Assembly: GCF_004804275.1 (NCBI RefSeq)
Contig: NZ_STGI01000005.1
Coordinates: 248,001-312,000 of the forward strand
Direction: 5' to 3'
From: Herbaspirillum sp. ST 5-3
GTDB lineage: Bacteria > Pseudomonadota > Gammaproteobacteria > Burkholderiales > Burkholderiaceae_D
DNA length: 64,000 nt
The number at the start of each line of letters is the position of its first letter. The stretch's first letter is position 1. Below the pieces are notes generated by a model that was given only the letters and a program-made list of their open reading frames with translations, had not been told where the DNA came from and made no database searches. This document shows positions 34,929-53,860 of the stretch, piece by piece. The translations under genes were made by a program, and so were the position numbers.

Positions 34929-36072
34929 TGCACATCACGCCGCCCCTGCTCCGCTCGGCGGACCGATGGTGACGCCGACTACCGTTACGCTCGCCATCCT
35001 GGCAGCGATCGCGGTCGTCATCCTCGGCGTTCGCTTCCTGTACGGCATGGGCGCGGTCAGCAATATCAGCGACGGACAGACCTGGGGCATCTGGGTCGTG
35101 TACGACGTCATGATCGGCTCCGCCTTCGCCTGCGGCGGCTACGTCATGGCGATCCTGGTCTATATCTTCAACAAGGGCGAGTACCACCCGATGGTGCGGC
35201 CGGCGCTGCTGGGCAGCCTGTTCGGCTACACGCTGGCCGGCCTTTCGGCAGCCATCGACCTCGGCCGCTACTGGAATTTCTGGCATGTGTTCTGGCCGGG
35301 CTACGCGCAGCTCAATTCGGTGATGCTGGAAGTGGCCTTGTGCGTGTCGGCCTATATCCTCGTGATGTGGATCGAGTTCGCGCCGGCGCTGCTGGAGAAG
35401 TTCGGCCTCAACGTGGCGAAGAAAAAACTGAGCAAGGTGCTGTTCTTCTTCATCGCGCTCGGTGTGGTATTGCCGTCCATGCACCAGTCCTCGCTCGGCG
35501 CCATGCTCACGGTGTTCGGCTATCACGTGCATCCGCTGTGGCAAAGTCCGGTCATTTCGCTGCTGTTTCTGATGACTGCGGTGACGACCGGCTTCGCGGT
35601 GGTGATCTTCGAATCCTGCCTGTCCTCGTCCGGATTCCGGCGCGCATTGGAAATGGATTTGATGACCAAACTGTCGCGCCTGATGGTATGGACAGTGGCG
35701 GCGTACATCATCATCCGCCTGGCAGATCTGGCGATGCGCGGTGCGTTCGGCTTCATGTTCGAACCCGGACTCAAGGCCTTGATGTTCTGGATCGAGATGA
35801 TCGCCTTCATCGTGCCGGTGTTCATGCTGCGCGACGAGAAGCGCCGCACTCAGCCGGCCAAGCTGTTCGTCGCCGCCGTGCTGCTGATGGCGGGCGCCTT
35901 CCTGCTGCGCATCAACGCCTATATCGTCGGTTACAGCACCGGGCTGGGCTGGAGCTACTTCCCCTCGGTGCCGGAACTCATGGTCAGCATCGGCATTATC
36001 GCAATCGAAATCCTGGGCTACATCGTGCTGGTTCGGTATCTGCCGATCCTGCCGCAAGAAGAATCAATTTAG
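34921..36072 (+). CDS. hybB: HybB/NrfD-type integral membrane subunit
   Basis: 383-residue NrfD-family protein with about ten hydrophobic helices, lacking haem ligands typical of HyaC/HoxZ cytochrome b. It should connect the hydrogenase to the quinone pool. It includes the family's TWGIWVVYDVMIGSAFACGGY helix region near residues 54-74 and SSLGAMLTVFGYHVHPLWQS near 190. Translation is coupled to hybA by an eight-base overlap. Confidence 0.92.
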   Translation: MSDAHHAAPAPLGGPMVTPTTVTLAILAAIAVVILGVRFLYGMGAVSNISDGQTWGIWVVYDVMIGSAFACGGYVMAILVYIFNKGEYHPMVRPALLGSLFGYTLAGLSAAIDLGRYWNFWHVFWPGYAQLNSVMLEVALCVSAYILVMWIEFAPALLEKFGLNVAKKKLSKVLFFFIALGVVLPSMHQSSLGAMLTVFGYHVHPLWQSPVISLLFLMTAVTTGFAVVIFESCLSSSGFRRALEMDLMTKLSRLMVWTVAAYIIIRLADLAMRGAFGFMFEPGLKALMFWIEMIAFIVPVFMLRDEKRRTQPAKLFVAAVLLMAGAFLLRINAYIVGYSTGLGWSYFPSVPELMVSIGIIAIEILGYIVLVRYLPILPQEESI

Positions 36073-36081
36073 GAGACAAGC

Positions 36082-37785
36082 ATGACAAAGAGAATCACGA
36101 TCGATCCGATCACCAGGATTGAGGGCCATCTCCGGATCGACTGCGAGGTTGACGGCGGCAAGGTCAAGAAGGCATGGGCCTCGGGCCAGATGTGGCGCGG
36201 CGTGGAGCAGATCCTGGTAGGACGCGATCCGCGCGACGCCTGGTCGATCACGCAGCGCATCTGCGGCGTCTGCACCACCGTGCATGCAATCACCTCGGTG
36301 CGCGCCATCGAAAACGCGCTGAAGATGGAAATCCCGCTCAACGCGCAATACATCCGCAACCTGATCATCACGGCGCACGCGATCCACGACCACATCGTGC
36401 ACTTCTACCATCTGTCCGCGCTGGACTGGGTGGACGTCACCTCGGCACTCAAGGGAGACCCGGCGAAGACCGCTCAACTGGCGGAAAGCCTGTCGACCTG
36501 GAGCGGCAACAGCAAGCATGAATTCGCGAAGGTGAAAGAGCGCCTGTCCGGCTTCGTCGGCACCGGGCAGCTCGGCATCTTCACCAATGGCTACTGGGGC
36601 CACCCGGCGATGAAGCTGACGCCGGAAGTAAACCTGCTGGCGACCACGCACTATCTGCAGGCGCTGGATATCCAGCGCAAGGCGAACAAGATCGTGTCCA
36701 TCCTCGGCGCGAAGACACCGCACATCCAGAACATTGCCGTGGGCGGCGTGTCCAACCCGATCGATTTCGATTCGCAATCCTCGCTGACCATGGAACGCCT
36801 GATGGCGGTCAAGGGCTGGATCGACGAGCTGGCCGATTTCGTGAAGAACGTGTATCTGGTCGACGTGGCCGCCATTGGCGCCTTCTATGCCGACTGGACC
36901 GGCATCGGCGCCGGCGTCATGGAGTACCTCGCAGTGCCGGATATTCCGCTCGACACCAAGGGCACACAGTTCGCCATGCCGGGCGGCTACATCCAGGGGG
37001 GCGATCTCGCTTCCTTCAAGCAGATCAAGAGCTTCAGCGACCAGTATTTCCGCGACGGCGTCGAGGAGAGCGTCAAGCACGCCTGGTACAAGGGCGGCAA
37101 GGGCGCGCTGCATCCGTTCAAGGGCGAGACCGAGCCGCAATACACCGACTTCCAGGACGACGGCAAATATTCCTGGGTCAAGTCGCCGACCTTCTATGGC
37201 AAGCCGGCGCAAGTCGGCCCCTTGTCGCGCGTGCTGACCATGGTCGCGGCCAAGCATGAGCCGACCATCAAGTATGTGAACCAGACGCTCGACACAGTCA
37301 GTGCACTGGCGAAAACCAAGGTCCCGGTCGCCGCCCTGCACTCCACCATCGGCCGCCACGCAGCGCGCGCCGTGTCCTGCGCGGTGCAGGTCGACATCCT
37401 CGCGCAGCAGTGGCAACTGCTGGTCGAGAACATTGCCAAGGGCGACCAGAAGACCTTCAACAAGCCGAGCTTCCCGAAAGGCGAAGTCACCGGCGTCGGT
37501 TTCCACGAAGCGCCGCGCGGCGCGCTGTCGCACTGGGTCGTTCTCAATGACGGCAAGATCAGCAATTATCAATGCGTCGTGCCGACCACATGGAACGCGG
37601 CGCCGCGCAACGAGCATGACGCCATCGGGCCGTACGAGGCATCGCTGCTGAATACGCCGGTGGCCGATCCGGAGCGCCCGCTGGAAGTGCTGCGCACGGT
37701 GCACTCCTTCGACCCCTGCCTCGCCTGTGCGGTGCATGTGCTCGACGCTGACCAGCAGGAGGTTGTGAAAGTTCAGGTGTTATAG
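36082..37785 (+). CDS. hybC: Membrane-bound [NiFe] hydrogenase large subunit
   Basis: 567-residue catalytic subunit. The active-site ligands are C61 and C64 (RICGVC) and C546 and C549 (DPCLAC). The precursor continues 15 residues past H552 (VLDADQQEVVKVQVL), the peptide removed by the HybD protease after nickel insertion. This distinguishes it from HoxC. It follows AGGAGA, ten bases after hybB. It oxidises H2 in the periplasm. Confidence 0.96.
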   Translation: MTKRITIDPITRIEGHLRIDCEVDGGKVKKAWASGQMWRGVEQILVGRDPRDAWSITQRICGVCTTVHAITSVRAIENALKMEIPLNAQYIRNLIITAHAIHDHIVHFYHLSALDWVDVTSALKGDPAKTAQLAESLSTWSGNSKHEFAKVKERLSGFVGTGQLGIFTNGYWGHPAMKLTPEVNLLATTHYLQALDIQRKANKIVSILGAKTPHIQNIAVGGVSNPIDFDSQSSLTMERLMAVKGWIDELADFVKNVYLVDVAAIGAFYADWTGIGAGVMEYLAVPDIPLDTKGTQFAMPGGYIQGGDLASFKQIKSFSDQYFRDGVEESVKHAWYKGGKGALHPFKGETEPQYTDFQDDGKYSWVKSPTFYGKPAQVGPLSRVLTMVAAKHEPTIKYVNQTLDTVSALAKTKVPVAALHSTIGRHAARAVSCAVQVDILAQQWQLLVENIAKGDQKTFNKPSFPKGEVTGVGFHEAPRGALSHWVVLNDGKISNYQCVVPTTWNAAPRNEHDAIGPYEASLLNTPVADPERPLEVLRTVHSFDPCLACAVHVLDADQQEVVKVQVL

Positions 37786-37787
37786 CC

Positions 37788-38279
37788 ATGCGCATCGTCA
37801 TCCTCGGCGTCGGCAACATCCTTCTCTCCGACGAAGGTGTCGGCGTGCGTGCGGTCGAACGCTTCCAGCGCGAGTACCGCGTGCCGCCCGGTGTCGAGGT
37901 GATCGACGGCGGAACCGCCGGCATGGAATTGCTGGAAGACCTCGCCAATGCCACGCACCTGATCATCGTCGATGCGGTGCGCAGCAGGAAAGCGCCCGGC
38001 ACCATGGTGCGCATCGCCGGTCCCGATGTGCCGGTGTTTTTCAAGACCAAGCTGTCGCCGCATCAGGTCGGCCTGTCCGATGTGCTGGCGACGCTGGCGT
38101 TCAATGATGAACAACCCGGCGGCGTGACCGTGTTCGGCGTCGAACCGGTGTCGCTCGACACCGGCATGGCGCTCACGCCGCAAGTGGAAGCCTTGTTGCC
38201 GGCGCTGACCTCCCACCTGGTCGCCGAGCTGGCCCTGCTCGGCATCGCGGTCGAACCGATCGCACAGGAGGCGGCCTGA
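37788..38279 (+). CDS. hybD: Hydrogenase maturation endopeptidase HybD
   Basis: 163-residue nickel-dependent protease that trims the HybC C-terminus. The three metal-sensing residues of the HybD family are present: E16 in LLSDEGVG, the Asp in IIVDAV near 62 and the His in LSPHQVG near 92. It starts two bases after the hybC stop and shares one base with the following hypC-like gene (TGATG). Confidence 0.95.
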   Translation: MRIVILGVGNILLSDEGVGVRAVERFQREYRVPPGVEVIDGGTAGMELLEDLANATHLIIVDAVRSRKAPGTMVRIAGPDVPVFFKTKLSPHQVGLSDVLATLAFNDEQPGGVTVFGVEPVSLDTGMALTPQVEALLPALTSHLVAELALLGIAVEPIAQEAA

Positions 38280-38509
38280 TGTGCATGGCCATCCCTTCGC
38301 GCATCGTTGCCATCGACGGCGACATGGCAACGGTCGAAGCATTCGGCCGGCAACGTCATGTGAGCCTGCTCCTGATGCAGCACCCGGTGCAGCTCGGCGA
38401 GTATCTGCTGATCCAGGCCGGGGGCTTCGCCTACGAATGCGTGGCGCCGGATCGCGCGCTGGAAACACTGGCTATTTTGGACGGGATCGTCGATCATGCG
38501 GAAAATTGA
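38279..38509 (+). CDS. Second HypC/HybG-type chaperone
   Basis: 76-residue HypC-family protein starting MCMAIPSRIVAI, with the essential N-terminal Cys2. It is divergent from the HypC at 29901 and ten residues shorter. Located directly behind the uptake hydrogenase genes, it is the natural dedicated chaperone for HybC, equivalent to HybG or HoxL-like proteins. The gene name is left open because HypC, HybG and HoxL are hard to separate by sequence alone. Confidence 0.9.
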   Translation: MCMAIPSRIVAIDGDMATVEAFGRQRHVSLLLMQHPVQLGEYLLIQAGGFAYECVAPDRALETLAILDGIVDHAEN

Positions 38510-38541
38510 CCGCGACCTCTGACTGAATTTCCTATTGCACC

Positions 38542-39663
38542 GTGAGCCTGGAAGGGAAAATCCGCATCAAGCTGGACTGGGACGGCAGGCACGTCACTGC
38601 CGCCGCACTGCAGCCGCGCAAGCTCGTTCCCATCCAGACACTTCTGCACGGCAAGCGTCCCGAGCACGCATTGCAAATCATCTCCATGCTCTTCAGCCTG
38701 TGCGGCAAGGCGCAAACCGCTGCTGCGGCAACGGCATTGCAGGCTGCAGGCGACGCTACGTCGCGCGTTCCGGCGTGGCGCGAACGTGCGGTTGCCGCTG
38801 AAGCCTTGCAGGAATTGCTGTGGCGCTTCCTGATTGATCTGCCGCGCCTGATGGAATTGCCCACCGATACACGTGCGCTGGCACGCTTCAGGCAGGGTCT
38901 GATGGCGTACTGTGATGCCGATAATGACGAGCGTGCATCGCAGGCCGATCTGGCGGAGCTCGAAGCCGATGTCCACCGGACGCTTCTCGGGCAGGTCACC
39001 TTGGGCGATGTTCGAACCATGAGGGAGCTGCTGCAATGCCTGCGAGAGGCCAATACCACCACGGCGTCGATCTTGCTGCAATGCCGGCAACTGGAAACCG
39101 GTCGCCCTGCCAATGACGTCCCCCTGATGCCGCATGCAGAACGAAATTGCGTGCTGGAGGAACTGATGCCGGTCATGACAGAGACGAATTATTCGATCTG
39201 CCCGCACTGGAACGGTCGGGCAATGGAAACCGGCTCACTGGCGCGCATGCAGCATCACCCTCTTCTTGCCTGGCTGCTGCAACAAGAGGGGCGATCCCTG
39301 TTTGCCCGCCTTCTTGCGCGACTGTGCGAGATCCATGCGCTGTTCGCGCATCTGCGCGCGCCGGACGACTCAGGCAGCGCATGGGTACAGGGAGCGACGC
39401 CGGCAGAGGGGATCGGCCTGGCCTGGGTGCAGAATGCGCGCGGTCTCTTGCTGCATCATGCCGTGCTCGACGCGGCAGGAAACATTCACGACTACCGTAT
39501 CGTCGCTCCCACCGAATGGAATTTCCACCCGCAAGGCATCTGCACCCGCACTCTGACCGGCATGGCCGCGCCCAGCGAGAACGCGCTGCGTCACCACGTC
39601 GAATTACTGGTCCAATCGCTGGACCCCTGCGTTTCCCATGAAGTCGAGGTTTACCATGCATGA
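38542..39663 (+). CDS. HupK/HoxV-type accessory protein, degenerate large-subunit paralogue
   Basis: 373-residue protein related to [NiFe] large subunits but without their active site. NWNGRAMETGS-like sequence (PHWNGRAMETGSLAR, ~220-234) mirrors the MEVGPLAR block. The N-terminal RxCGxC is missing, and the C-terminal motif is DPCVSHEVEVYHA, keeping only the first cysteine. HoxV/HupK proteins are thought to be scaffolds for the Fe(CN)2CO group before transfer to the large subunit. The start is GTG at 38542 with a weak ribosome-binding site. It overlaps hypA by eight bases. Confidence 0.8.
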   Translation: MSLEGKIRIKLDWDGRHVTAAALQPRKLVPIQTLLHGKRPEHALQIISMLFSLCGKAQTAAAATALQAAGDATSRVPAWRERAVAAEALQELLWRFLIDLPRLMELPTDTRALARFRQGLMAYCDADNDERASQADLAELEADVHRTLLGQVTLGDVRTMRELLQCLREANTTTASILLQCRQLETGRPANDVPLMPHAERNCVLEELMPVMTETNYSICPHWNGRAMETGSLARMQHHPLLAWLLQQEGRSLFARLLARLCEIHALFAHLRAPDDSGSAWVQGATPAEGIGLAWVQNARGLLLHHAVLDAAGNIHDYRIVAPTEWNFHPQGICTRTLTGMAAPSENALRHHVELLVQSLDPCVSHEVEVYHA

Positions 39664-39997
39664 AATGTCGCTCGCGGAAGGCGTGCTTCAGGTCATCGAA
39701 GACAGCGCCCGCGCCAATGGCTTCACCCACGTGAAGACAGTGTGGCTGGAAATCGGCGCACTGGCCGGAGTGGAGGTGGAAGCGATGCGCTTTTGCTTCG
39801 ATGCGGTGGTCAAGGACACGCTGGCCGACGGCACGCGCCTGGAGATCATCGAAACCGAAGGACAGGGATGGTGCATGACCTGCAACAAGACCGTTCCGAT
39901 CAGCCAGCGCTACGACCCCTGCCCCGATTGCGGCGGCTACCAGGTGCAGGCGACCGGCGGCATGGAATTGAAGGTCAGGGAACTGGAAGTCGAATAG
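39656..39997 (+). CDS. hypA: Nickel metallochaperone HypA
   Basis: 113-residue partner of HypB. The nickel-binding MHEMSLAEGV N-terminus (H2) and the structural zinc site C73, C76, C89, C92 (CMTC, CPDC) are intact. It is the last gene of the hyb operon, separated from the other hyp genes, which are on the opposite strand. Its 3' end overlaps the convergent nickel permease gene by 23 bases. Confidence 0.96.
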   Translation: MHEMSLAEGVLQVIEDSARANGFTHVKTVWLEIGALAGVEVEAMRFCFDAVVKDTLADGTRLEIIETEGQGWCMTCNKTVPISQRYDPCPDCGGYQVQATGGMELKVRELEVE

Positions 39998-40799
39998 GAG
40001 ATTGCTCCGCCGTCTGGCTGATGCGCCGTGCAAGCGCATAACCGGCAAGGATGAGAGTCAGCACCAATGCGCCGAAGAGCAGTTCCTTGCCGTCGGCCCA
40101 GGCATCAAACACGTCGGAAGCCAGTTTCGACACGCCGAGCCCGGCCACCAGCAGCGCGCTGGCGGCGACCAGCAGCGAGAACAGGCGGCTGGCGTTCTGC
40201 ACGAAGCGTTCGCTGCGCCGGATCAGGCTCGCGACCACCAATCCGTTGAGCGTGTCGGTCAGAATCATGCCTCCGACGAAGCACAGCGCGAGAATCAGCG
40301 TCGCGCTCATTCCGTCATGGCGGCTTCCCGCGAGGCCGAACCATGCTGCCAGCGACATCGCATCAAAGGACACGGCAAACAAGGCGCCGACCAGGATGCT
40401 GCCGAAAAAGCCCTCGGGCAAGGGCAAGCGCGCAATCAGGCGCGCCAGCGGCGACGCAACCGGCGTGCTGCGTTCCGCGCGCATGACATTGCACAGGTTG
40501 ACGATGCCGATCGAGCCGAGAAAGACGATGGAGATCCACGCACCGAGCGGTTCGAGCCACTGCGGCATATGGCCGACGCCCGCCCGCACGAAAATCCATG
40601 CCGCGCCCAGCACCGTCATTCCGTGCCCGAGCGAGAACAGCAATCCCGCGCTGCGTGCCAGGCGCTTGTGTCCGCGCCGCGACTGCAGCCGCGCCAGGCC
40701 GTCGATGCTGGCGAGATGATCCGCATCGAAGCCGTGTTTCAGCCCGAATAGCAAGGCGAAGGCCATCAGGCTGCTGAACGCGAGTGAAGCTTCGGGCAT
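39975..40799 (-). CDS. NiCoT/UreH-like nickel permease
   Basis: 274-residue membrane protein with six to eight hydrophobic segments and the nickel-permease signature GLKHGFDADHLASIDG (HX4DH) in the first helix, plus LFSLGHGMTVLGAAW and SFDAMSLAAWFGLAGS further on. It imports Ni2+ for hydrogenase and is a functional equivalent of HoxN, though shorter than the ~350-residue R. eutropha protein. It converges on hypA and is preceded by a possible sigma54 promoter. Confidence 0.85.
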   Translation of the reverse strand: MPEASLAFSSLMAFALLFGLKHGFDADHLASIDGLARLQSRRGHKRLARSAGLLFSLGHGMTVLGAAWIFVRAGVGHMPQWLEPLGAWISIVFLGSIGIVNLCNVMRAERSTPVASPLARLIARLPLPEGFFGSILVGALFAVSFDAMSLAAWFGLAGSRHDGMSATLILALCFVGGMILTDTLNGLVVASLIRRSERFVQNASRLFSLLVAASALLVAGLGVSKLASDVFDAWADGKELLFGALVLTLILAGYALARRISQTAEQSPIRLPVP

Positions 40800-41030: not shown

Positions 41031-43814
41031 TCAGGCAACGGCCCTGGCGGAAGGCGTCCGCTCCAGAATGATCTTCTTCAGCTCGGGCACGCAGGATCCG
41101 CAATTCATTCCGCACTTCAGCTTCTGCTGCACGCTGGCCAGCACCGCGTTCGGCGTGCCGGCATTGATCCAGTCCTGCTTTGCCAGCGCATCCCCGATCT
41201 GGCTTTCGGCAACGTTGAAGCAATTGCAAACGATCTTGCCGCGCGCCTTGAAGCCCTGCGGCGCCTTGGTGGACGGCATCAGCAGCAGACGTCCAAGTGC
41301 GGCGACCGGCTGCTCGCTCTCCAGGTATTCCTTCAGCCAGCGCTCGGCCGAGATATCGCCGGACAGGGACACCGCCGCCAGCTTGCCGTCGCGCACGAGG
41401 ATATGCCGCGCATTGCCGCGCTTGGCATCGTCGTAGCGCAGCACATCGGCGCCCGCGATGCCGAAGCGCGTCTCGATGTCCCTGACCAGTTCCGTCGCGG
41501 CCGGATAATCATCGGCGGCGCGAAACAGCACGCCTACCTTGTCGCGCCCGAACAAGGTGCAGGAGGCATAGGCAAACTGCCGCATCGACGGCCGCAGCGC
41601 GGATTGCAGCGTTGCGACCTGCGAGGGCGCTATCCATCCGAATACCAGGAAGCGCCACGGCAGTTCGGCTTTCAGGATCTTCACCGCCGCATGCTTGAGT
41701 TCCGGCTGCCTGGAACTCGGGCAAAGCGCCGGCAAGGTCAAGGCGTTCACGCCGTAGGTGCCGTCGCCGTCGCGGCCGCGTCCGGACACGAATTCCTCGC
41801 CCCAGTGCATGCCGATGAACGCCTGCCCCGGCCGCATGTCGTCGCTGGCCGCCGCGGGCAGAATCTGCGAGCCGCGCTTGCTGGTGACATGCACCAGGTC
41901 GCCGCTGGCGATCATGCGCCTGTCCATGTCTGCCTGCGCCATCAGCACCGCCGGTTCGGGCGCGTGCGCAAAAAGCTGCGCCACCGTGCCGGTGCGGCTC
42001 ATGCCGTGCCACTGGTCGCGCAGGCGGCCGGTGTTCAGGCGAAACGGGAAACGCGCATCGACCGCCTCGGCCACCGGCCGGTACACGGTGTCGGCGAACT
42101 TCGCGCGGCCGTTGGCCGTCGGATAGATGCCGTCTTCATAGAGACGTTTCCTGCCTGTCGATGCGCCTTCGGGAAAGGGCCATTGCTGCGGCCCCTGCTC
42201 TTCCAGAATCTGGTAGGACAGGCCGGTGATGTCGAGATCGCGCCCGCGCGTCGATTCGCGATGTTCGTTCCAGATCTCCTCCACGGTCGCGTAGGGAAAG
42301 ATGGTCTTGTCCTTGCCCATCAGTTTTTCGAGCCGGCGCGCGAAGTCGACGACGATCTCCCAGTCGTGACGCGTTTGCGCCGGCTTGGGCAACACCGGCT
42401 TGAATCGCGTGATGCGGCGCTCGGAGTTGGTGACCGTGCCTTCCTTTTCGCTCCAGGTGGTCGCCGGCAGCAACACGTCGGCGTAATCCACCGTGGCGGT
42501 CGTCTTGTAGGCCTCCTGCACGATCACCAGGTCGGCGTGCTTCAGTGCTTCGCGCACCAGCTTCTGCTCGGGCAGCGATTGGGCCGGGTTGGTGCAGGCG
42601 ATCCAGACAATCCTGATCTCGCCGGAACGCAGCGCTTCAAACATTTCTACGGCAGTTTTCCCCGGCTTGGCGGGCACCTCGTCCACGCCCCACAATGTGG
42701 CCACTTGCGCGCGATGTTCGGGATTGCCCATGTCGCGATGCGCGGACAGCAGGTTGGCCATGCCGCCGACTTCGCGACCGCCCATCGCATTCGGCTGCCC
42801 CGTCAGCGAAAACGGGCCGGCACCGGGCTTGCCGATCTGGTGCGTCGCCAGATGCAGGTTGATCAGGGCCGCGTTCTTCGCGGTGCCGTGCGAGGACTGA
42901 TTCAGCCCCTGGCAGTACAGCGAGAGCGCAGCCTTCGATGCACCGAACCAGCGCGCCGCCGTAGTCAGGTCTTCCTCGCTGATGCCGCAGGTGTCGGCCA
43001 CGAATTTCGGCGTGTAGTCGCGTACCGTGCGTTTCAGTTCGACGAAACCGTCGGTATGCGCTTCGATGTACGCGTTGTCGATCAGGTCTTCCCACAGGCA
43101 GATATGCAGCATGCCGTTGAACAGCGCGACGTCGGTGCCGGGCAGAATCGGAAGGAACAGATCGACGTCGCGCGCGGTGTCGGTGCGGCGCGGATCGGCG
43201 ACGATCATCTTCAGGCGCGGATTCTTCTTGCGCGCGTCTTCGATGCGGCGATAGAGAATGGGATGCGCGTAAGCGGTATTGGAGCCGACGATGAAGATCA
43301 CATCCGCATGATCGATATCCTCGTAGCACGCCGGCGGCGCATCGGCGCCGAGCGTCTGCTTGTAACCGGCGACCGCGCTCGACATGCACAGGCGCGAATT
43401 GGTGTCGATATTGTTGGTGCCGATCAGCCCCTTCGACAGCTTGTTGAAGACGTAATAGTCTTCGGTCAGCAACTGGCCGGAGATATAGAAGCCGACGCTG
43501 TCGGGCCCGTGGTCGCGAATCGTGGCGGCGAATTTCTTCGCGATGAAATCCAGCGTGGCATCCCATGAGGCGCGTTCACGCGGCGCTTCCCGCGTGACGC
43601 GCATCTCCGGATGCAGCGCCCGCGTCTGCATCTGCACGAGCGGGTCAGCACTCAGGTGCAGCGTGCCGCCCTTGGTGCACAGCCGCCCGAAGTTGGCCGG
43701 ATGGTCGGGGTCGCCCCGCACGCCGACCACCTTCTCGCCGTCGCTCTGGACGATGACGCCGCAGCCGACGCCGCAATAGCAGCAAGTCGCTTTTGATTCG
43801 CGTATTGCAGTCAT
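41031..43814 (-). CDS. nasA: Assimilatory nitrate reductase catalytic subunit NasA
   Basis: 927-residue cytoplasmic molybdenum enzyme reducing nitrate to nitrite. The N-terminal [4Fe-4S] motif CCYCGVGCGV (11-20) is completed by LCTKGG. Molybdopterin-guanine dinucleotide domains follow, including TNNIDTNSRLCMSSAV and GQPNAMGGREVGG. A C-terminal BFD-like [2Fe-2S] domain (CNCFNV and CGMNCGSCVPELKK, last ~70 residues) is characteristic of the NasA class that receives electrons from a reductase partner. The start at 43814 overlaps the nirD stop (ATGA). Confidence 0.94.
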   Translation of the reverse strand: MTAIRESKATCCYCGVGCGVIVQSDGEKVVGVRGDPDHPANFGRLCTKGGTLHLSADPLVQMQTRALHPEMRVTREAPRERASWDATLDFIAKKFAATIRDHGPDSVGFYISGQLLTEDYYVFNKLSKGLIGTNNIDTNSRLCMSSAVAGYKQTLGADAPPACYEDIDHADVIFIVGSNTAYAHPILYRRIEDARKKNPRLKMIVADPRRTDTARDVDLFLPILPGTDVALFNGMLHICLWEDLIDNAYIEAHTDGFVELKRTVRDYTPKFVADTCGISEEDLTTAARWFGASKAALSLYCQGLNQSSHGTAKNAALINLHLATHQIGKPGAGPFSLTGQPNAMGGREVGGMANLLSAHRDMGNPEHRAQVATLWGVDEVPAKPGKTAVEMFEALRSGEIRIVWIACTNPAQSLPEQKLVREALKHADLVIVQEAYKTTATVDYADVLLPATTWSEKEGTVTNSERRITRFKPVLPKPAQTRHDWEIVVDFARRLEKLMGKDKTIFPYATVEEIWNEHRESTRGRDLDITGLSYQILEEQGPQQWPFPEGASTGRKRLYEDGIYPTANGRAKFADTVYRPVAEAVDARFPFRLNTGRLRDQWHGMSRTGTVAQLFAHAPEPAVLMAQADMDRRMIASGDLVHVTSKRGSQILPAAASDDMRPGQAFIGMHWGEEFVSGRGRDGDGTYGVNALTLPALCPSSRQPELKHAAVKILKAELPWRFLVFGWIAPSQVATLQSALRPSMRQFAYASCTLFGRDKVGVLFRAADDYPAATELVRDIETRFGIAGADVLRYDDAKRGNARHILVRDGKLAAVSLSGDISAERWLKEYLESEQPVAALGRLLLMPSTKAPQGFKARGKIVCNCFNVAESQIGDALAKQDWINAGTPNAVLASVQQKLKCGMNCGSCVPELKKIILERTPSARAVA

Positions 43815-44164
43815 GCGGCCTTGGCCTCGATCGCCAGCGTGTTCAATTCGTCGAGGTCGAGAAAGACCTTGCCGTCCTCGACCTTGACGCTGAATTTCTG
43901 CGTGCAACCCTCGTCCGGCGCAGTGGCGCAACCCGAATCCAGCTGGATGTTCCAGTTGTGCAGCGGGCAGGCGACGCGCTCGCCGAAGACAATGCCTTGC
44001 GACAGCGGGCCGCCCTTGTGCGGACAGCGGTCGAGCAGCGCGAAGATCTTGTCTTCACTGTTGCGGAAGATCGCGACGTCCGGTTTCGCGCTGCGTGTGA
44101 CGACTCGCGCGCCGAGCATCGGCACATCATTGACATTGCAGACGGCTTTCCATTGTTTCGACAT
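43811..44164 (-). CDS. nirD: Nitrite reductase small subunit NirD
   Basis: 117-residue Rieske-type subunit of NADH-dependent assimilatory nitrite reductase. C47/H49 (RCPHKGG) and C66/H69 (ACPLHNW) retain the full Rieske ligand set, which many NirD proteins lose. It lies 39 bases downstream of nirB and overlaps nasA by four bases, so nirB-nirD-nasA is one transcription unit. Confidence 0.94.
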   Translation of the reverse strand: MSKQWKAVCNVNDVPMLGARVVTRSAKPDVAIFRNSEDKIFALLDRCPHKGGPLSQGIVFGERVACPLHNWNIQLDSGCATAPDEGCTQKFSVKVEDGKVFLDLDELNTLAIEAKAA

Positions 44165-46704: not shown

Positions 46705-46720
46705 AGCAAGAGAGGTGCCA
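46705..46720 (-). promoter_or_regulatory. Sigma54 promoter of nirB-nirD-nasA
   Basis: Minus strand TGGCACC-TCTC-TTGCT, matching consensus at all key positions. The expected start is near 46694, leaving a ~50-nt leader. The NtrC-type box at 46761-46777 is centred about 75 bases upstream. Confidence 0.8.
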
Positions 46721-46760
46721 AACCCTGAAGCGCCAAAACGCACCGAGATGAAGACGAAAT

Positions 46761-46777
46761 TGCACCGCCGCAGTGCA
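46761..46777. promoter_or_regulatory. NtrC-type binding site shared by nirB and narK
   Basis: TGCACCGCCGCAGTGCA fits the GCACY-N5-RGTGC NtrC consensus with full dyad arms. It sits between two divergent sigma54 promoters, about -75 from the nirB start and -105 from the narK start, both normal distances for an enhancer site. Confidence 0.65.
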
Positions 46778-46847
46778 GCAGGCCTGTTCGCGTGGTGCAT
46801 TGCACATGGAAGAGCAGAAGCAGCTTAATGAATGCTAAAGAATTCGA

Positions 46848-46863
46848 TGGCACAACGCTTGCA
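46848..46863 (+). promoter_or_regulatory. Sigma54 promoter of narK
   Basis: TGGCACA-ACGC-TTGCA is a full match to the -24/-12 consensus. Transcription would start near 46874. The element overlaps an in-frame ATG at 46847, so translation must start downstream. Confidence 0.75.
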
Positions 46864-48174: not shown

Positions 48175-48208
48175 TCATATCCATCCCACATATCGGGTGA
48201 CATCCACC

Positions 48209-49912
48209 ATGCCCCTGTCCATCAGCATCGGTCATGCGACGCGCGCCGGCCCGCGCGAGCGCAACGAGGATTTCGTGGGCATGGTCACGCCCAATGAACC
48301 GGAACTGTCGACCAAGGGATTCATCGCGGCGATTGCCGATGGCGTGTCGGGCAACGATGGCGGACGCGAAGCCTCGGAATACACCGTGCGCGGCCTGCTC
48401 GCCGACTACTATGCGACACCCGATACCTGGCCGGTGACGCAATCGCTCGACCGCGTCATCAAGGCGATCAACAGCTGGGTGCAGAAGCAGGGATCGGCGC
48501 GCGCGGAATTGTCGGGCATGGCAACCACGCTCACGGCGGTGGTGCTGCGCGGCGGCTACTACTATTTTTCGCATATCGGCGACACGCGGCTGTACCTGCT
48601 GCGCGGCGGTGCCCTGACCCGCCTGACCACCGATCATGTGTGGGATCGCGCGGAAATGCGTCACGTCCTGACGCGCGCCATCGGCCTCGATTCCCATGTC
48701 GCGCTCGACCACGGCATGGGCGAGCTGCAGGAACGCGACGTGTTCCTGCTGGTGTCGGACGGTGTATGGGCGTGGACGACCGAATACGACATGACGCATC
48801 ATCTGTCGCAGCTCGCACTGGGACAGCTCGACGCCGGCGACACGGCGGACATGCTCGTCGATAATGCGCTGGCCGCGGGCTCGGTCGACAACTGCAGCGC
48901 CCTGGTCCTGAGAATCGACGCCTTGCCTGAAGTGAACCTGCGCGATGCCCTGTCGGCGTCGCAGCAATTGCCGGTCCCGCCGAAGCTGAAACCGGGACAG
49001 AGCATCGACGGCCTGGAGGTGGAGGCCATCGTTCACTCCTCGCAGGCGACCGTGCTGTACCGCGTGTTCGACCCGAAATCGCAGCGCCAGCTGGTGCTGA
49101 AGACCTTGCAGGCCGACCGTGCCAGCGACCCGCACGAGCGATCCGCGTTTGCGCAGGAGGAATGGCTGGCCAAGCGCGTGGTCGCACGCTTCTTTCCGCA
49201 AGTGATCACACCGGAACACAAGAACTACCTGTATTACCTGACCACCTGGCACGACGGCCAGACGCTGCAGCAGGCACTGGACAAGGGCGCGCATTTCACC
49301 GCACCGGAAGCCGTGGCAATCGGCGAAAAACTGGCGCGCGCGGTCGGCGCCCTGCATCGCCGCAACATCATTCATCGCGATATCAAGCCGGCCAATGTGC
49401 ATCTCGGCACGGACGGCGAGCTGCGGCTGCTCGATCTGGGCGTCGCTCTCTCCGGCGCCGAAGAAGACCATCCCATCGAAGCCCCGCAGGCGGGCACCCC
49501 GTCCTTCCTCGCGCCCGAACAGTTCGACGGCGCACCGCCTTCGCCCCAGACCGATATTTACGCGGCGGGCGTGACGCTGTATCGCATGCTCACGCGCCAT
49601 TATCCCTATGGCGAGATCGAACCGTTCCAGCGGCCACGATTCGGCGAACCGACGCCGCCCGGGCGTTATCGTCCGGATGTTCCGATCTGGCTGGAAAACG
49701 TCTTGCTGAAGGCGGTGGCGCGCGATCCCGCCGACCGCTTCGAAACGGCCGAGGAATTGCTGGTTGCGCTCGGGCGCGGCGCCAGCAATCCACCGGCGCC
49801 GCGCGTCGCCGCACCGCTCGCCAAGCGCGATCCGGTTGCACTATGGCGAGCGGTGGCAGTGATCTCGATCGTGATCAATCTCTTGCTAATCTATCTGATC
49901 GCCGCACGCTAG
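48209..49912 (+). CDS. PP2C phosphatase-Ser/Thr kinase fusion, membrane anchored
   Basis: 567-residue bifunctional signalling protein. The N-terminal PP2C domain (~1-235) has metal-binding RNEDF, ADGVSG, GDTRLYL, SDGVW and DNCS. The C-terminal Hanks-type kinase (~270-530) has K in LVLKTL, catalytic IIHRDIKPANV, DLG in place of DFG, and FLAPEQF; the glycine loop is poor. A single helix (AVAVISIVINLLLIYLIAA) ends the protein, placing both domains in the cytoplasm. The ATG at 48209 follows GGGTGA. It is beside nitrate-transport genes, so it may tune uptake; substrates are unknown. Confidence 0.85.
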   Translation: MPLSISIGHATRAGPRERNEDFVGMVTPNEPELSTKGFIAAIADGVSGNDGGREASEYTVRGLLADYYATPDTWPVTQSLDRVIKAINSWVQKQGSARAELSGMATTLTAVVLRGGYYYFSHIGDTRLYLLRGGALTRLTTDHVWDRAEMRHVLTRAIGLDSHVALDHGMGELQERDVFLLVSDGVWAWTTEYDMTHHLSQLALGQLDAGDTADMLVDNALAAGSVDNCSALVLRIDALPEVNLRDALSASQQLPVPPKLKPGQSIDGLEVEAIVHSSQATVLYRVFDPKSQRQLVLKTLQADRASDPHERSAFAQEEWLAKRVVARFFPQVITPEHKNYLYYLTTWHDGQTLQQALDKGAHFTAPEAVAIGEKLARAVGALHRRNIIHRDIKPANVHLGTDGELRLLDLGVALSGAEEDHPIEAPQAGTPSFLAPEQFDGAPPSPQTDIYAAGVTLYRMLTRHYPYGEIEPFQRPRFGEPTPPGRYRPDVPIWLENVLLKAVARDPADRFETAEELLVALGRGASNPPAPRVAAPLAKRDPVALWRAVAVISIVINLLLIYLIAAR

Positions 49913-49925
49913 CTGCCTCCCGACG

Positions 49926-50729
49926 TCAGGCCGCTGCCGGGTGCGCCTGCCGGTGATACAGGAACTCCAGCACCGAAGTACGGTACTCGATGTAAAGCGG
50001 ATCAAGCGCCAGCGCAACGCGGTCGCGCGGGCGAGGCAGGCGCACCTGGACGATGTCGCCGATGGTCGCCGCAGGACCGTTGGTCATCATGACGATGCGG
50101 TCCGACAGCAGCACCGCTTCATCCACGTCATGCGTGACCATCACCACGGTTGATCCGGTCTTGCCGACGATCTTCATCAATTCGTCCTGGAGATGCGCGC
50201 GGGTCAGCGCATCGAGCGCGCCGAAGGGCTCGTCCATCAGCAAGACCTTCGGCTCCATCGACAGTGCACGCGCAATGCCGACGCGCTGCTTCATGCCGCC
50301 GGAGATTTCATGCGGGCGCTTCTGCGCGGCATGACTCAGGTCGACCAGCGCAAGCGCGGCCATGGTGCGTTGCTTCAGCTCCGCCCTGTTTTCGGTTGTG
50401 CCGAAAACGCGTTCGACCGCCAGATAGACATTTTCATAGCAGCTCAGCCAGGGCAGCAGCGAATGATTCTGGAACACGACAGCCCGTTCCGGCGACGGCC
50501 CGGCGATTTCCCGATTGGCGCAGATCAGCGTACCGCCCGTCGCGTCCAGCAGTCCGGCGATCAGGTTCAGCAGCGTCGACTTGCCGCAACCGGAGTGACC
50601 GATCAGCGTGACGAACTCGCCTTTTCTGACGCTCAGGTCGATGTCCTTCAAGGCCGGAAAGATCCCGTTCCTGGTGGAGAAGCTCATTTCCGCGTGTTGA
50701 ATCTCGATGAATTTGCCTGCCTTGTCCAT
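49926..50729 (-). CDS. nrtD: Nitrate ABC transporter ATPase NrtD
   Basis: 267-residue ATPase of a nitrate/sulfonate/taurine-type ABC importer. Walker A GHSGCGKST (44-52), Q-loop VVFQNHSLLPWL, signature SGGMKQRVGIARAL, Walker B VLLMDEPFGALD and H-loop VTHDVDEA are intact. The start at 50729 is chosen; the open frame before it is a shadow of nrtB. It is 17 bases downstream of nrtB. Confidence 0.92.
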   Translation of the reverse strand: MDKAGKFIEIQHAEMSFSTRNGIFPALKDIDLSVRKGEFVTLIGHSGCGKSTLLNLIAGLLDATGGTLICANREIAGPSPERAVVFQNHSLLPWLSCYENVYLAVERVFGTTENRAELKQRTMAALALVDLSHAAQKRPHEISGGMKQRVGIARALSMEPKVLLMDEPFGALDALTRAHLQDELMKIVGKTGSTVVMVTHDVDEAVLLSDRIVMMTNGPAATIGDIVQVRLPRPRDRVALALDPLYIEYRTSVLEFLYHRQAHPAAA

Positions 50730-50746: not shown

Positions 50747-51649
50747 TCAACTGCGCACCTCTTCGTAGGTAAATGCCCTGGCAAGCGCGACCAGCGCCTG
50801 CTCCAGCAACAAGCCAACGACACCGATCACGACGATGGCGATGATGATGTGCGGCACGTTCAGGTTGTTCCATTCGTCCCAGACCCAGAAGCCGATGCCC
50901 ACGCCGCCGGTCAGCATTTCCGCGGCGACGATGACCAGCCAGGCAGTGCCGATCGCCAGGCGCACGCCGGTCAGCATGTACGGCAGCACCGAAGGGAACA
51001 GGATCTTGGTGACGATCTTCCACTCGGACAGGTTGAGCACCTTCGCCACGTTCATGTAGTCCTGCGGCACGCGCTGCACGCCGATGGCGGTGTTGATGAT
51101 CATCGGCCAGATCGAGCAGATGAAGATGCCCCAGATCGCAGCCGGGTTGGCGGCCTGGAACACCAGCAGGCCTATCGGCAGCCATGCCAGCGGCGACACT
51201 GGCTTCAACAGGCTCACGATCGGACTGAACATGCCGGACAGGAAGCGAAAGCGCCCGATCAGAAAGCCGAGCGGGATGCCGACCGCGGCCGCCATGCCGA
51301 AGCCGGTCGCGACGCGCTTGAGCGAGGCCAGCAGGTTCCAGCCTATGCCCTGGTCGTTGGGTCCTCGCTGATAAAAGGGATCGGAGAAGACGACGATGGC
51401 TTCCCGCAGGGTGAGCAGCGGCGAGGGAAAGCCCTTGCTGCTCGCGGCCACGATTTCCCATGCCAGCACAAGGAGCGCCATGCCGAGAACGGGCGGCAAT
51501 ACGGCCAGGAAGAAGGGTTTCAGTGAAACCTGTTTCCTGGCAAGGGCTACCGTGCGCTTCCTGCTTCTTGTTGGGGCTTCCCTGGTGCCGGCTCTCTTCG
51601 ATGCGGATCCTGCAAGCGGCTCAAATTCCTTTTCCAATACTGCGCTCAT
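50747..51649 (-). CDS. nrtB: Nitrate ABC transporter permease NrtB
   Basis: 300-residue inner-membrane permease with about six helices and the ABC importer EAA-type loop (NVAKVLNLSEWKIVTKILFPSVLPY, at ~200-225). A 40-residue basic cytoplasmic N-terminus precedes the first helix. It forms the channel with NrtD ATPase and receives nitrate from NrtA. It is nine bases after nrtA. Confidence 0.92.
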   Translation of the reverse strand: MSAVLEKEFEPLAGSASKRAGTREAPTRSRKRTVALARKQVSLKPFFLAVLPPVLGMALLVLAWEIVAASSKGFPSPLLTLREAIVVFSDPFYQRGPNDQGIGWNLLASLKRVATGFGMAAAVGIPLGFLIGRFRFLSGMFSPIVSLLKPVSPLAWLPIGLLVFQAANPAAIWGIFICSIWPMIINTAIGVQRVPQDYMNVAKVLNLSEWKIVTKILFPSVLPYMLTGVRLAIGTAWLVIVAAEMLTGGVGIGFWVWDEWNNLNVPHIIIAIVVIGVVGLLLEQALVALARAFTYEEVRS

Positions 51650-51658
51650 GATGCGTCC

Positions 51659-52909
51659 TTACGCTTTGATCTTGAATGAACCGGCATACAGCTTCGGATT
51701 CCTGCCGTCCCACACCGCGCCGTCGATGAGTTTCGACGAACGCATGACGTCCTTCGGCACGCTGACCTTCGCCATGCCCGCAGCGTCCTTGTACAGATCG
51801 ATGCGATTGATCTGTCGCGCCACGGCGAGGTAATCGATGTCTTCCTTCAGCAAACCCCAGCGCCGATGCTGTGTCAGGAACCACATGCCGTCGGACAGAT
51901 AGGGAAAGTTCACATAACCGTCGTTGTAGAACTTCATGTGGTTCGGATCGTCCCAGGTCTTGCCGAGGCCGTTCTGGTAGCGGCCGAGGATGCGCTGGTT
52001 GATCGCATCGACGCCGGTATTGACATAGGACTTGCCGGCGACCGTCTCCGCCATCTTCATCTTGTTCTGCAAGCCGGCATCGATCCACCTGCCGGCTTCC
52101 AGAACCGCCGCGGTCATGGCGCGCGCGGTGTTCGGATATTTCGCCACCCACTCGGCGGTGGTGCCGAGAATCTTTTCCGGATGATCCTTCCAGATATCCT
52201 GCGTGGTGACGGCCGTCATGCCGATGCCATCCATGATTGCGCGATGGCCCCAGGGCTCGCCGACGCAGAAGCCGTCCATGTTGCCGACGCGCATATTGGC
52301 CACCATTTGCGGCGGCGGCACGGTGACGATCTTCGCATCCTTCATGGGATCGATGCCGTTGGCGGCCAGCCAGTAATACAGCCACATCGCATGCGTGCCG
52401 GTGGGGAAGGTCTGCGCAAAGCTGTATTCGCGCTTGTCGGACTTCATCAGCTTCGCCAGCGATGCGCCGTCGACCGCGCCCTTGTCGGCCAGCTTCTTCG
52501 ACAGCGTGATCGCCTGTCCGTTATGGTTGAGCGTCATCAGCATGGCCATGTCTTTTTTCGGACCGCTGATGCCGAGATGGACACCGTACACCAGGCCATA
52601 CAGCACATGTGCCGCATCGAGTTCGCCGTTGACCAGCTTGTCGCGCACGCCGGCCCAGGACGCTTCCTTGCTCGGCACGATCTTGATGCCGTATTTCTTG
52701 TCGAAGCCGAGCACGGAGGCCATCACCACCGAAGCGCAGTCGGTCAGCGGAATGAAGCCGACCTTCACCTCCTCCTTTTCCGGCTTGTCCGAGCCGGCCG
52801 CCCACACACCTTGCGTGGCCAATCCGCCGAGAGTACCGGCAGCCGCGGCGGCGCCCGCCTTGATGATGCGGCGGCGGGTCAAGTTCGTTGTCGTGTCTTT
52901 TGCTGTCAT
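51659..52909 (-). CDS. nrtA: Nitrate-binding protein NrtA
   Basis: 416-residue substrate-binding protein of the NrtA/NasS family. The N-terminus has a Tat signal (TRRRIIKAG, ~10-18) and an Ala-rich hydrophobic stretch, so it is exported; this argues against the cytoplasmic sensor NasS. Binding-pocket blocks include VGFIPLTDCASVVMAS, SLAKLMKSDKREYSFAQTFP near 170 and GNMDGFCVGEPWGHRAI. The ATG at 52909 has GGGGACC upstream. An intrinsic terminator lies 31 bases before the start, so expression depends on antitermination. Confidence 0.93.
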   Translation of the reverse strand: MTAKDTTTNLTRRRIIKAGAAAAAGTLGGLATQGVWAAGSDKPEKEEVKVGFIPLTDCASVVMASVLGFDKKYGIKIVPSKEASWAGVRDKLVNGELDAAHVLYGLVYGVHLGISGPKKDMAMLMTLNHNGQAITLSKKLADKGAVDGASLAKLMKSDKREYSFAQTFPTGTHAMWLYYWLAANGIDPMKDAKIVTVPPPQMVANMRVGNMDGFCVGEPWGHRAIMDGIGMTAVTTQDIWKDHPEKILGTTAEWVAKYPNTARAMTAAVLEAGRWIDAGLQNKMKMAETVAGKSYVNTGVDAINQRILGRYQNGLGKTWDDPNHMKFYNDGYVNFPYLSDGMWFLTQHRRWGLLKEDIDYLAVARQINRIDLYKDAAGMAKVSVPKDVMRSSKLIDGAVWDGRNPKLYAGSFKIKA

Positions 52910-52939: not shown

Positions 52940-52995
52940 AAAAAGAAAGGCGTCCGAACCGCCCCGAGTTTCACTCAGGGGATTCGGACGCCTTT
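52940..52995 (-). terminator. Leader terminator in front of nrtA
   Basis: 13-bp outer stem AAAGGCGTCCGAA / TTCGGACGCCTTT, with an inner stem around a short loop. On the minus strand the hairpin is followed by CTTTTT. It is located in the 5' leader, before the ribosome-binding site, so it stops transcription before nrtA unless relieved. Confidence 0.88.
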
Positions 52996-53006
52996 GTCCT
53001 GTTGTC

Positions 53007-53059
53007 CCGACCTGCACTGGTCAGAACGGCATTGCTGATCCTTGCGCCTTCATTGGCAC
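53007..53059 (-). promoter_or_regulatory. ANTAR-target RNA: two hexaloop hairpins (P1, P2)
   Basis: P1 at 53059-53044 is GTGCC[AATGAA]GGCGC. P2 at 53024-53007 is CTGACC[AGTGCA]GGTCGG. Both loops are six bases with A at loop position 1 and G at position 4, the defining residues for ANTAR-domain binding. They are 19 bases apart, and P2 is 11 bases before the terminator stem. NasT, encoded just upstream, is the obvious ligand: its binding should favour P1/P2 and relieve termination. Confidence 0.8.
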
Positions 53060-53071
53060 TTGCCTGCTATT

Positions 53072-53087
53072 TGCAATTGGCATGCCA
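53072..53087 (-). promoter_or_regulatory. Sigma54 promoter of nrtABD
   Basis: Minus strand TGGCATG-CCAA-TTGCA, with perfect GG/GC spacing. The predicted start near 53061 places hairpin P1 within two bases of the RNA 5' end, consistent with a leader dedicated to antitermination. Confidence 0.8.
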
Positions 53088-53130
53088 GCACGCTTTGCTT
53101 GCATTTGACCCGAAAATGAACCGGAAACGC

Positions 53131-53145
53131 GCACTGAATTTGTGC
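53131..53145. promoter_or_regulatory. NtrC-type box upstream of nrtA
   Basis: GCACTGAATTTGTGC has the two GCAC/GTGC half-sites with correct 7-base spacing, though the inner Y/R bases differ from consensus. Its centre is about -77 from the predicted nrtA start, nearly the same as at nirB (-75). Confidence 0.5.
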
Positions 53146-53167: not shown

Positions 53168-53791
53168 TCACAGCAACAGATCGGCCACATCGATCATGCG
53201 CTGCGCCACTTCGGACAGCTTCAGGTTCTTGTCCATCGCGAGACGACGCAGCTTGCGATAGGCCTCGTCCTCGGAATAGTGATGGCGCTCCATCAGCAGG
53301 CCCTTCGCACGCTCGATGACCTTGCGTTCGGCCAGCCGGAGTTTCGTCTCGGACAGTTCATGACGCAGCTTCTGATCCACCTCGAAGCGCGCCAGCGCGA
53401 CATCAAGCACCGCCTTCACGCGCTCGGCCGACAGGCCGGCGACAACATAGGCAGACACGCCTGCCTCGATCGCCGCATGCATCGAGTCCTTGTCCTTGTT
53501 CTCCGTAAAACACACGATCGGTCGCCGCTGGTTGGCGGTGGCGGCGACCACCTTCCTCAATGCGGCATCGGACTGTTCGTCCACGATGATCAGGTCCGGC
53601 TGCAATTGCGCAATCTGCTTTGCCAGATCCGCGTCCGGCGGCAACGCGGCCAGGATGTTGTAGCCGCCCTGCAGCAGGCCGATGCGCAGTGCGCGCGCCC
53701 GTTCCGCCTGCACCTGCGCCGCGCGATCGGCGCCCTCCGGCGCGACCAGGGAATTGATGACAACGATCTTGAGTTGTTTGGAATCGGTCAT
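53168..53791 (-). CDS. nasT: ANTAR-domain antiterminator NasT
   Basis: 207-residue response-regulator-like protein. The N-terminal receiver-like domain (LKIVVINSL, DLIIVDEQ, VCFTENKDKD) is followed by a coiled segment and a C-terminal ANTAR RNA-binding domain (ERKVIERAKGLLMERHHYSEDEAYRKLRRLAM, at ~150-181). It should bind the double-hairpin leader before nrtA. The partner nitrate sensor NasS is not encoded in the window. It is directly upstream of the nrtA leader on the same strand. Confidence 0.92.
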   Translation of the reverse strand: MTDSKQLKIVVINSLVAPEGADRAAQVQAERARALRIGLLQGGYNILAALPPDADLAKQIAQLQPDLIIVDEQSDAALRKVVAATANQRRPIVCFTENKDKDSMHAAIEAGVSAYVVAGLSAERVKAVLDVALARFEVDQKLRHELSETKLRLAERKVIERAKGLLMERHHYSEDEAYRKLRRLAMDKNLKLSEVAQRMIDVADLLL

Positions 53792-53844: not shown

Positions 53845-53860
53845 TGCAAAAAGCTTGCCA
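53845..53860 (-). promoter_or_regulatory. Probable sigma54 promoter of nasT
   Basis: Minus strand TGGCAAG-CTTT-TTGCA, with correct spacing and only one departure from the -24 consensus. The start near 53834 gives a 43-nt leader for nasT. It abuts the tsaD start codon at 53863 on the other strand. I could not find a matching NtrC box upstream. Confidence 0.5.

Follow-up and report, generated by a model that had tools for sequence, protein, structure and literature searches.

A predicted NasT-bound antitermination leader with three hexaloop hairpins between nasT and nrtABD in a Noviherbaspirillum-like genome

The short intergenic region between nasT and nrtA in Herbaspirillum sp. ST 5-3 raises the question of how the nitrate transporter operon nrtABD is switched on, and which signals would act on the start and on the completion of its transcript. 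The region lies within a stretch of 64,000 nucleotides (contig NZ_STGI01000005.1, positions 248,001 to 312,000; hereafter the window) of a 5.8 Mb genome with Noviherbaspirillum-like affinity, and the closest named nasT loci, those of N. malthae and N. aerium, are 92% identical to that of the window. A first-pass annotation had described a sigma54 promoter and NtrC box followed by a complete antitermination leader of the NasT type, forming a two-level switch in which nitrogen limitation allows initiation and nitrate allows elongation. The analysis gives good grounds for regarding the region as a transcription-antitermination leader bound by NasT and started by NtrC and sigma54, with a third hairpin (H3) as the competitor of the terminator, a reading carried by the elements themselves, the covariation of their stems, the overlap of H3 with the terminator and the co-occurrence of the leader with NasT. 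It is very likely that the antitermination switch is real and that its working hairpin is other than the one previously named. A leader of this type behind such a promoter is supported, the P11 RNA and the NalA leader being laid out alike.

The promoter, TGGCATGCCAATTGCA, is the sole perfect match within the window to TGGCAYGNNNNTTGCW, and the NtrC-type dyad claimed beside it was found as GCAC-N7-GTGC (Table 1). A perfect NtrC box no more than 160 nt 5' of the -24 element is present at 31 of 58 nasT-linked loci and at 16 of 19 other nrtA loci, counts that include the window's own locus and compare with a background of 17 in 3850 mononucleotide shuffles. The host genome encodes both NtrC (684.5 bits against a cut-off of 558.6) and sigma54 (223.3 bits against 22.8), and the region therefore combines the -24/-12 consensus, a predicted NtrC box and the two regulator genes expected of a promoter of this class. 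NtrC would presumably act at the nrt leader promoter, and initiation permitted by nitrogen limitation is well supported by these sequence elements. The transcript is predicted to begin near position 53061 on the minus strand, with the first hairpin starting two bases downstream, just as had been proposed.

Comparable motifs occur elsewhere in the window. The gap between nirB (minus strand) and narK (plus strand) contains divergent sigma54-like sites at 46705-46720 (-) and 46848-46863 (+), each with one mismatch, on either side of a GCAC-N7-GTGC box (46762-46776). No match to R1, the covariance model of the leader, was found at this gap (46705-46863). A gene encoding a PP2C phosphatase fused to a protein kinase (48197-49912) lies between narK and the nrt operon, and the region 34921-40799, beside the nitrate reductase gene (41031-43931), is presumably a cluster for a [NiFe] hydrogenase and a nickel transporter.

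Table 1. Features of the nasT-nrtABD region, numbered from the first nucleotide of the window.
Feature	Position	Strand	Basis or remark
NtrC-type box GCAC-N7-GTGC, GCACAAATTCAGTGC	53131..53145	(-)	Motif match
sigma54 -24/-12 promoter TGGCATGCCAATTGCA	53072..53087	(-)	Kept in relatives
H1, first hexaloop hairpin GTGCC[AATGAA]GGCGC (P1 of the first-pass annotation)	53044..53059	(-)	Fold, shuffles, covariation
H2, second hexaloop hairpin GTTCTGACC[AGTGCA]GGTCGGGAC (P2 of the first-pass annotation)	53004..53027	(-)	Canonical P1 position
H3, third hexaloop hairpin GGAC[AAAGGC]GTCC	52986..52999	(-)	Likely antiterminator, canonical P2
Intrinsic terminator, 15 bp + 8 bp stem	52946..52995, T5 tail to 52940	(-)	Fold
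nasT, 207 aa, receiver-like domain + ANTAR RNA-binding domain	53168..53791	(-)	Pfam ANTAR, 78 bits
sigma54-type site before nasT, TGGCAAGCTTTTTGCA, one mismatch	53845..53860	(-)	Motif match
nrtA, nitrate-binding protein, Tat-type signal TRRRIIKAG	51659..52909	(-)	NrtA 2g29, E 7e-81
nrtB, nitrate ABC permease	50747..51649	(-)	TIGR01183, 249.1 bits, cut-off 209
nrtD, nitrate ABC ATPase	49926..50729	(-)	TIGR01184, 330 bits, cut-off 291.8

Two hairpins with six-base loops bearing A at position 1 and G at position 4 (A1/G4) had been claimed for the leader, and both exist, as H1 and H2; the count is in fact three, H3 having been overlooked. A1, G4 and a closing C:G pair are common to all three, as in the motif that SELEX yielded for NasR (PMC7496416, in part). 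In the published ANTAR model, as given in the relevant sections of PMC3369931 and PMC3369936, the distal hexaloop hairpin overlaps the terminator and its protein-stabilised pairing blocks termination. H3 is likely to be the antiterminator, since it alone among the three hexaloops overlaps the terminator, its loop and 3' arm forming the start of the terminator 5' arm. H1 and H2 have no sequence in common with the terminator, and therefore H2 and H3, with 23 nt between their loops, make up the canonical pair and H1 is an addition, so that the assignment of H1 and H2 to this pair does not hold. That pair alone would not keep the terminator from forming either: when 26 leaders were folded without protein, H1 closed in 24, H2 in 26 and H3 in none, and H1 and H2 coexist with the terminator. 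Forcing H3 in the protein-free window RNA costs 12.4 kcal/mol. The intrinsic terminator itself had been correctly placed ahead of the nrtA start codon (ATG at 52909), and part of it also appears in a separate listing. Of the features set out for ANTAR-target RNAs (Ramesh 2012), the leader has at least two tandem A1/G4 six-base-loop stems (here three), a distal hairpin that overlaps and excludes the terminator (H3) and, as its predicted binding partner, an ANTAR protein in the genome (a single, adjacent NasT).

A chance origin of the hairpins was ruled out by shuffling and by covariation. When the leader was dinucleotide-shuffled 5000 times, three A1/G4 hexaloop hairpins never arose together; two were present in 7 shuffles and one in 387. 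The folding z of the leader is -4.89. The covariance search for ANTAR RNA that had been suggested placed the window leader at the top with 68.3 bits (E 6.4e-13), no other site in the genome exceeding 17 bits (E 0.99); the model's alignment includes the window leader, its sequences were picked partly for having the loops, and scoring covered 150 of the 2434 first-look candidates. Within that same scope the search for a wider regulon in the host genome returned this single leader. In an alignment of 38 relatives (A2), 88.7% of stem cells are paired and two-sided changes affect 12 of 18 pairs; on four of the five measures no shuffle out of 500 reached the observed value, on the fifth 21 did, and sliding the stem partners cuts pairing to 30-52%. 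Two-sided changes are found in 5 of 6 pairs of H1, 6 of 8 of H2 and 1 of 4 of H3. Two of the H3 pairs are invariant and one varies on one side, with 100% of cells paired, and the two-sided change, from GC to AU, is carried by 16 of the 38 relatives.

The elements suggest the following course of events. Under nitrogen limitation, NtrC and sigma54 would start the transcript, H1 and H2 would fold on emerging, and NasT would dock through their A1/G4 hexaloops before capturing the emerging H3. Formation of H3 would consume the terminator 5' arm, leaving a terminator that is shortened and parted from the U tract, and the polymerase could then read through into nrtABD. Without active NasT the terminator would win, releasing a short RNA on which H1 and H2 are exposed. 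Both the binding of NasT to the leader and the order of docking are what we infer from the layout of the RNA and its neighbouring gene.

The nasT gene does lie immediately upstream, as had been claimed, its end preceding the leader. Its product is the genome's single ANTAR match, and its nearest solved sequences are 6wsh, which we take to be EutV, and 1s8n ('putative antiterminator'). The EutV residues reported to contact RNA, K143, Y164 and M172 (PMC8934654, in part), are matched by spacing by K157, Y178 and M186 of NasT, which are conserved in 85, 83 and 85 of 85 rows. In the receiver-like domain D71 and T96 are present, whereas the acidic pair is replaced by N13 and S/T14 and strand 5 ends without the lysine, as counted over all 85 rows with NasS-positive and NasS-negative genomes pooled. 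Phosphorylation was set aside as the obvious input to NasT, given that the acidic pair and the lysine are absent, though D71 and T96 remain.

Across the host family the leader goes together with NasT. R1 matched 96 of 145 genomes (E <=0.1), comprising 80 of the 85 with NasT, counted at an identity of at least about 50%, versus 16 of the 60 without such a NasT, several of these 16 having different ANTAR proteins. R1 gave no match in five genomes in which nasT is present (G003, G004, G007, G029 and G055). All five genomes with nrtA and no NasT (G031, G033, G064, G086 and G027, where the NasT search gave no match or matches with E about 1e-4) were without an R1 match before nrtA at E <=1; they keep the sigma54 promoter of nrtA, and the hairpins and terminator are missing. 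Ten more nrtA promoters, from genomes in which nasT, if any, lies elsewhere, likewise gave no R1 match. In three genomes whose long ANTAR proteins (open frames of 425-427 codons) were classed as NasR-like on length alone, the H1 loop has lost G4, with H2, H3 and the terminator still in place.

It is on the protein side that the description of a complete system fails. The transporter genes are nrtA, nrtB and nrtD (the nrtD start being set at the MDKAGKF methionine), and the RR motif is found in the window's NrtA and most of its nrtA relatives. NasS, however, was not found in the host genome, where a search with NrtA (E <=0.001) returned nrtA only and four further PF13379 relatives scored 17.8-29.1 bits on the NasS profile versus 670 for NrtA. 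Host-family NasS shares 51-67% identity with NrtA, falling to 43-45% at four divergent loci, and a protein this close would have been detected if present. Of the two parts of a NasS-NasT nitrate system, the genome thus has NasT and, in place of a cytoplasmic NrtA-like sensor, only the NrtA with a Tat signal. Of the 85 host-family genomes with NasT, 24 yielded a NasS and 61 did not, a count that includes the window's genome and some drafts, a few of them less than 90% complete. In the NrtA tree (midpoint root; L056, L057 and L073 read as mislabelled by the simple motif rule) the cytoplasmic forms are separate groups adjoining the Tat forms, among which the window protein falls, and seven changes are required to explain the label 'NasS adjacent' on the NasT tree, well-supported branches forcing two of them. 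NasS is the described partner of NasT, freeing it on binding nitrate or nitrite, and Paracoccus without nasS loses nitrate perception and is deregulated (PMC3795266, in the sections concerned). The proposal that nitrate allows elongation is consequently unsupported here; of the two-level switch, the two-step layout stands, as does nitrogen-limited initiation on the basis of sequence, and the nitrate gate is unproven.

The reading that requires the fewest assumptions, to which we would give nearly an even chance, is that loss of NasS leaves NasT constitutively active as soon as it is synthesised, with nasT and the leader both under NtrC and sigma54. The result would be a coherent feed-forward circuit in which nitrogen limitation is the sole signal and nitrate has no part in elongation. 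It accords with the failure to find NasS in the genome, with the deregulation of Paracoccus lacking nasS (PMC3795266, in part), and with a NasT that retains D71 and T96 but is missing the acidic pair and lysine that a phosphorylated receiver should have. Within the NasT clade of the window, 16 of 17 loci also carry a sigma54 site before nasT (L024 is the exception), compared with 14 of 1780 shuffles, which suggests that the amount of NasT, at least, may follow nitrogen limitation. This site does not track NasS loss, however, being present at 8 of 28 NasS-linked loci and 5 of 44 other loci without adjacent NasS, and a terminator and three hexaloops would be retained for little gain; another sensor is possible. 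Nitrogen-gated feed-forward on NasT dose nevertheless fits at least as well as nitrate-gated elongation, while the data do not choose between it, NrtA as a sensor and another ligand.

Tat substrates fold ahead of export, and a substitute sensor could be the NrtA precursor, folded in the cytoplasm and acting as NasS to place NasT under nitrate control. NrtA is the closest relative of host-family NasS, and nasT and nrtA adjoin. The interaction is one that we propose from sequence, and the nine NrtA proteins examined from NasS-positive genomes also carry Tat motifs, so the signal is not specific to genomes without NasS; the explanation is on balance unlikely. A fuller version, in which pre-export NrtA is the nitrate sensor of NasT where NasS is missing and terminated leaders with intact H1 and H2 are a NasT sponge that sets the threshold, appears less probable still. 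If it were true, the first product of the operon would both feed the transporter and gate its own switch. Control of NasT by some other ligand is a further possibility, by analogy with c-di-GMP, which is reported to bind the NasT of Pseudomonas putida and loosen its grip on NalA (review PMC12830290, in part).

With NasT as the probable partner of the leader, the place of H1 has to be considered. Its role as a docking site is proposed and unproven, and is weakened by its spacing, since the H1-H2 loop distance varies across leaders (24-37 nt, and 73 and 83 nt in L061 and L063) as H2-H3 stays constant (19-25 nt, and still 23 in these two). A linker 20 nt longer abolishes antitermination by EutV (PMC8934654, in part). 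A general need for H1 is also argued against by leaders outside the host family: among the 84 of 86 examined that have H3, A1/G4 loops were found in both the H1 and H2 zones in 31, in the H2 zone only in 36, in the H1 zone only in 11 and in neither in 6, the H1 zone being wide enough in this count for a few matches to be chance. The first loop lies 31-36 nt past the promoter TGG in 34 of 35 host-family leaders (39 nt in the other), at 35-37 nt in 11 of 15 three-loop leaders outside the family (range 32-45) and at 35-39 nt in 17 of 27 two-loop leaders (range 35-52). These near-constant distances indicate that the first hexaloop, whichever it is, tends toward the transcript start. H1 might for that reason be a hairpin that stabilises the 5' end and not a NasT site, which would fit its near-fixed place beside the +1 and its variable distance from H2. 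This seems doubtful, as A1/G4 occurs in 41 of the 49 hexaloop hairpins scored without demanding it in the first-hairpin zone of 55 leaders, and the leaders of the three long-ANTAR genomes keep the stem yet lose G4. That H1 and H2 are the working antiterminator and H3 arose by chance is scarcely credible, for although both loops are canonical, neither hairpin overlaps the terminator, and H3 is fully paired with two-sided changes among the 38 relatives.

The leader extends beyond the host family, with R1 matches (E <=0.01) in 66 of 300 genomes of the host order, seven of which are host-family, and in 43 of 369 of the host class, the window's genome counted. A strict automatic scan of 80 sigma54-anchored upstream regions recovered all three hairpins in 35 and none in 19. 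Leaders fetched at other loci within the host family precede, in 20 of 20 cases, genes judged by eye to be NarK-type, and their stem sequences differ; both downstream proteins tested had their best match to TIGR00886 (NarK family), below its cut-off. By script, three A1/G4 hexaloops are present in 18 of these 20, and two in the NasS-positive L162 and L167. A link between the third hairpin and NasS loss was rejected, since the 20 NarK-type leaders include those of 15 NasS-positive genomes; among leaders directly before NasS-like genes, L025, L027 and L055 are without H1 and L035 has it. The layout is not universal. In three leaders 3' of nasT (L019, L020 and L021) H1 is kept, H2 is present in two, and little or nothing is left of H3 or the terminator close to the nrtA start, where control may have shifted to translation. 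In L198, whose A1/G4 hexaloops lie at -94 and -55, inspection by eye shows an extra hairpin with a five-base loop ahead of H3, and this leader is perhaps a four-hairpin version.

No report of a three-hexaloop ANTAR leader was found in the open-access literature, nor of nasT without nasS or of NrtA as a sensor. In that literature ANTAR leaders are described as dual-hexaloop RNAs, with the ANTAR dimer argued to bind one loop at a time (PMC8934654, in part), and the three hairpins reported in a PdtaR-binding RNA are not in a leader of the present kind (PMC8131098, in part). A conserved third loop whose position depends more on the transcript start than on its neighbours offers a natural test of the recruit-then-transfer model. 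The retention of NasT without its described sensor in 61 of 85 host-family genomes raises the question of what NasT senses, and cautions that nasT and a leader alone are insufficient for assigning nitrate control.

An Rfam scan of the window region gave no relevant match at E <=5, and the window scores below the gathering cut-offs of both P11 (RF00625; 17.1 bits against 70) and narK RNA (RF03032; 14.6 bits against 43.2). The P11 consensus nevertheless has the layout of the window leader, with a -24/-12 element, hairpins whose loops in P11 read AACGAU and AUAGAA, and GGACAAAGGCGUCC inside a terminator, so the kind is already known. Aligned to L182, the P11 'sRNA' model shows two A1/G4 hexaloops and a third within the terminator, and P11 reads as a three-hexaloop ANTAR leader on this sequence comparison. 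The narK RNA consensus begins with a GGCAC..UUGC element, followed by a modelled CC[AACGGC]GG hairpin and by CGAC[AAAGAC]GUCG, but the family is named for narK and its consensus is without the first hairpin. Alignment of RF03032 to L189, L182, L173 and L216 shows what looks like a sigma54 promoter and a two-hexaloop ANTAR leader of which only the first hairpin is modelled, and the family may need re-annotation.

Among characterised systems, as far as the sections of the sources concerned describe them, the Klebsiella nasF leader is alike in its A1/G4 hexaloops and the overlap of the distal one with the terminator, but has two hairpins and a regulator, NasR, that itself senses nitrate through a NIT domain. 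Paracoccus nasTS-nasABGHC likewise has a NasT-bound hairpin leader ahead of the target operon, although NasS is present there and an NtrC site was found before nasT, with none yet identified before nasA. The Enterococcus eut leaders share dual A1/G4 hexaloops and a model of successive binding by EutV, but are controlled by phosphorylation and serve other genes. A close counterpart is the Pseudomonas NalA leader of nirBD, which is presumably P11 itself. NalA is described with a sigma54 promoter, a start by phosphorylated NtrC and NasT-dependent read-through (review PMC12830290, in part), and differs in its target, nirBD against the window's nrtABD, and in that NasS is described in Pseudomonas and was not found here. 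The two-step switch is therefore already known in Pseudomonas, and the window leader is a variant of it.
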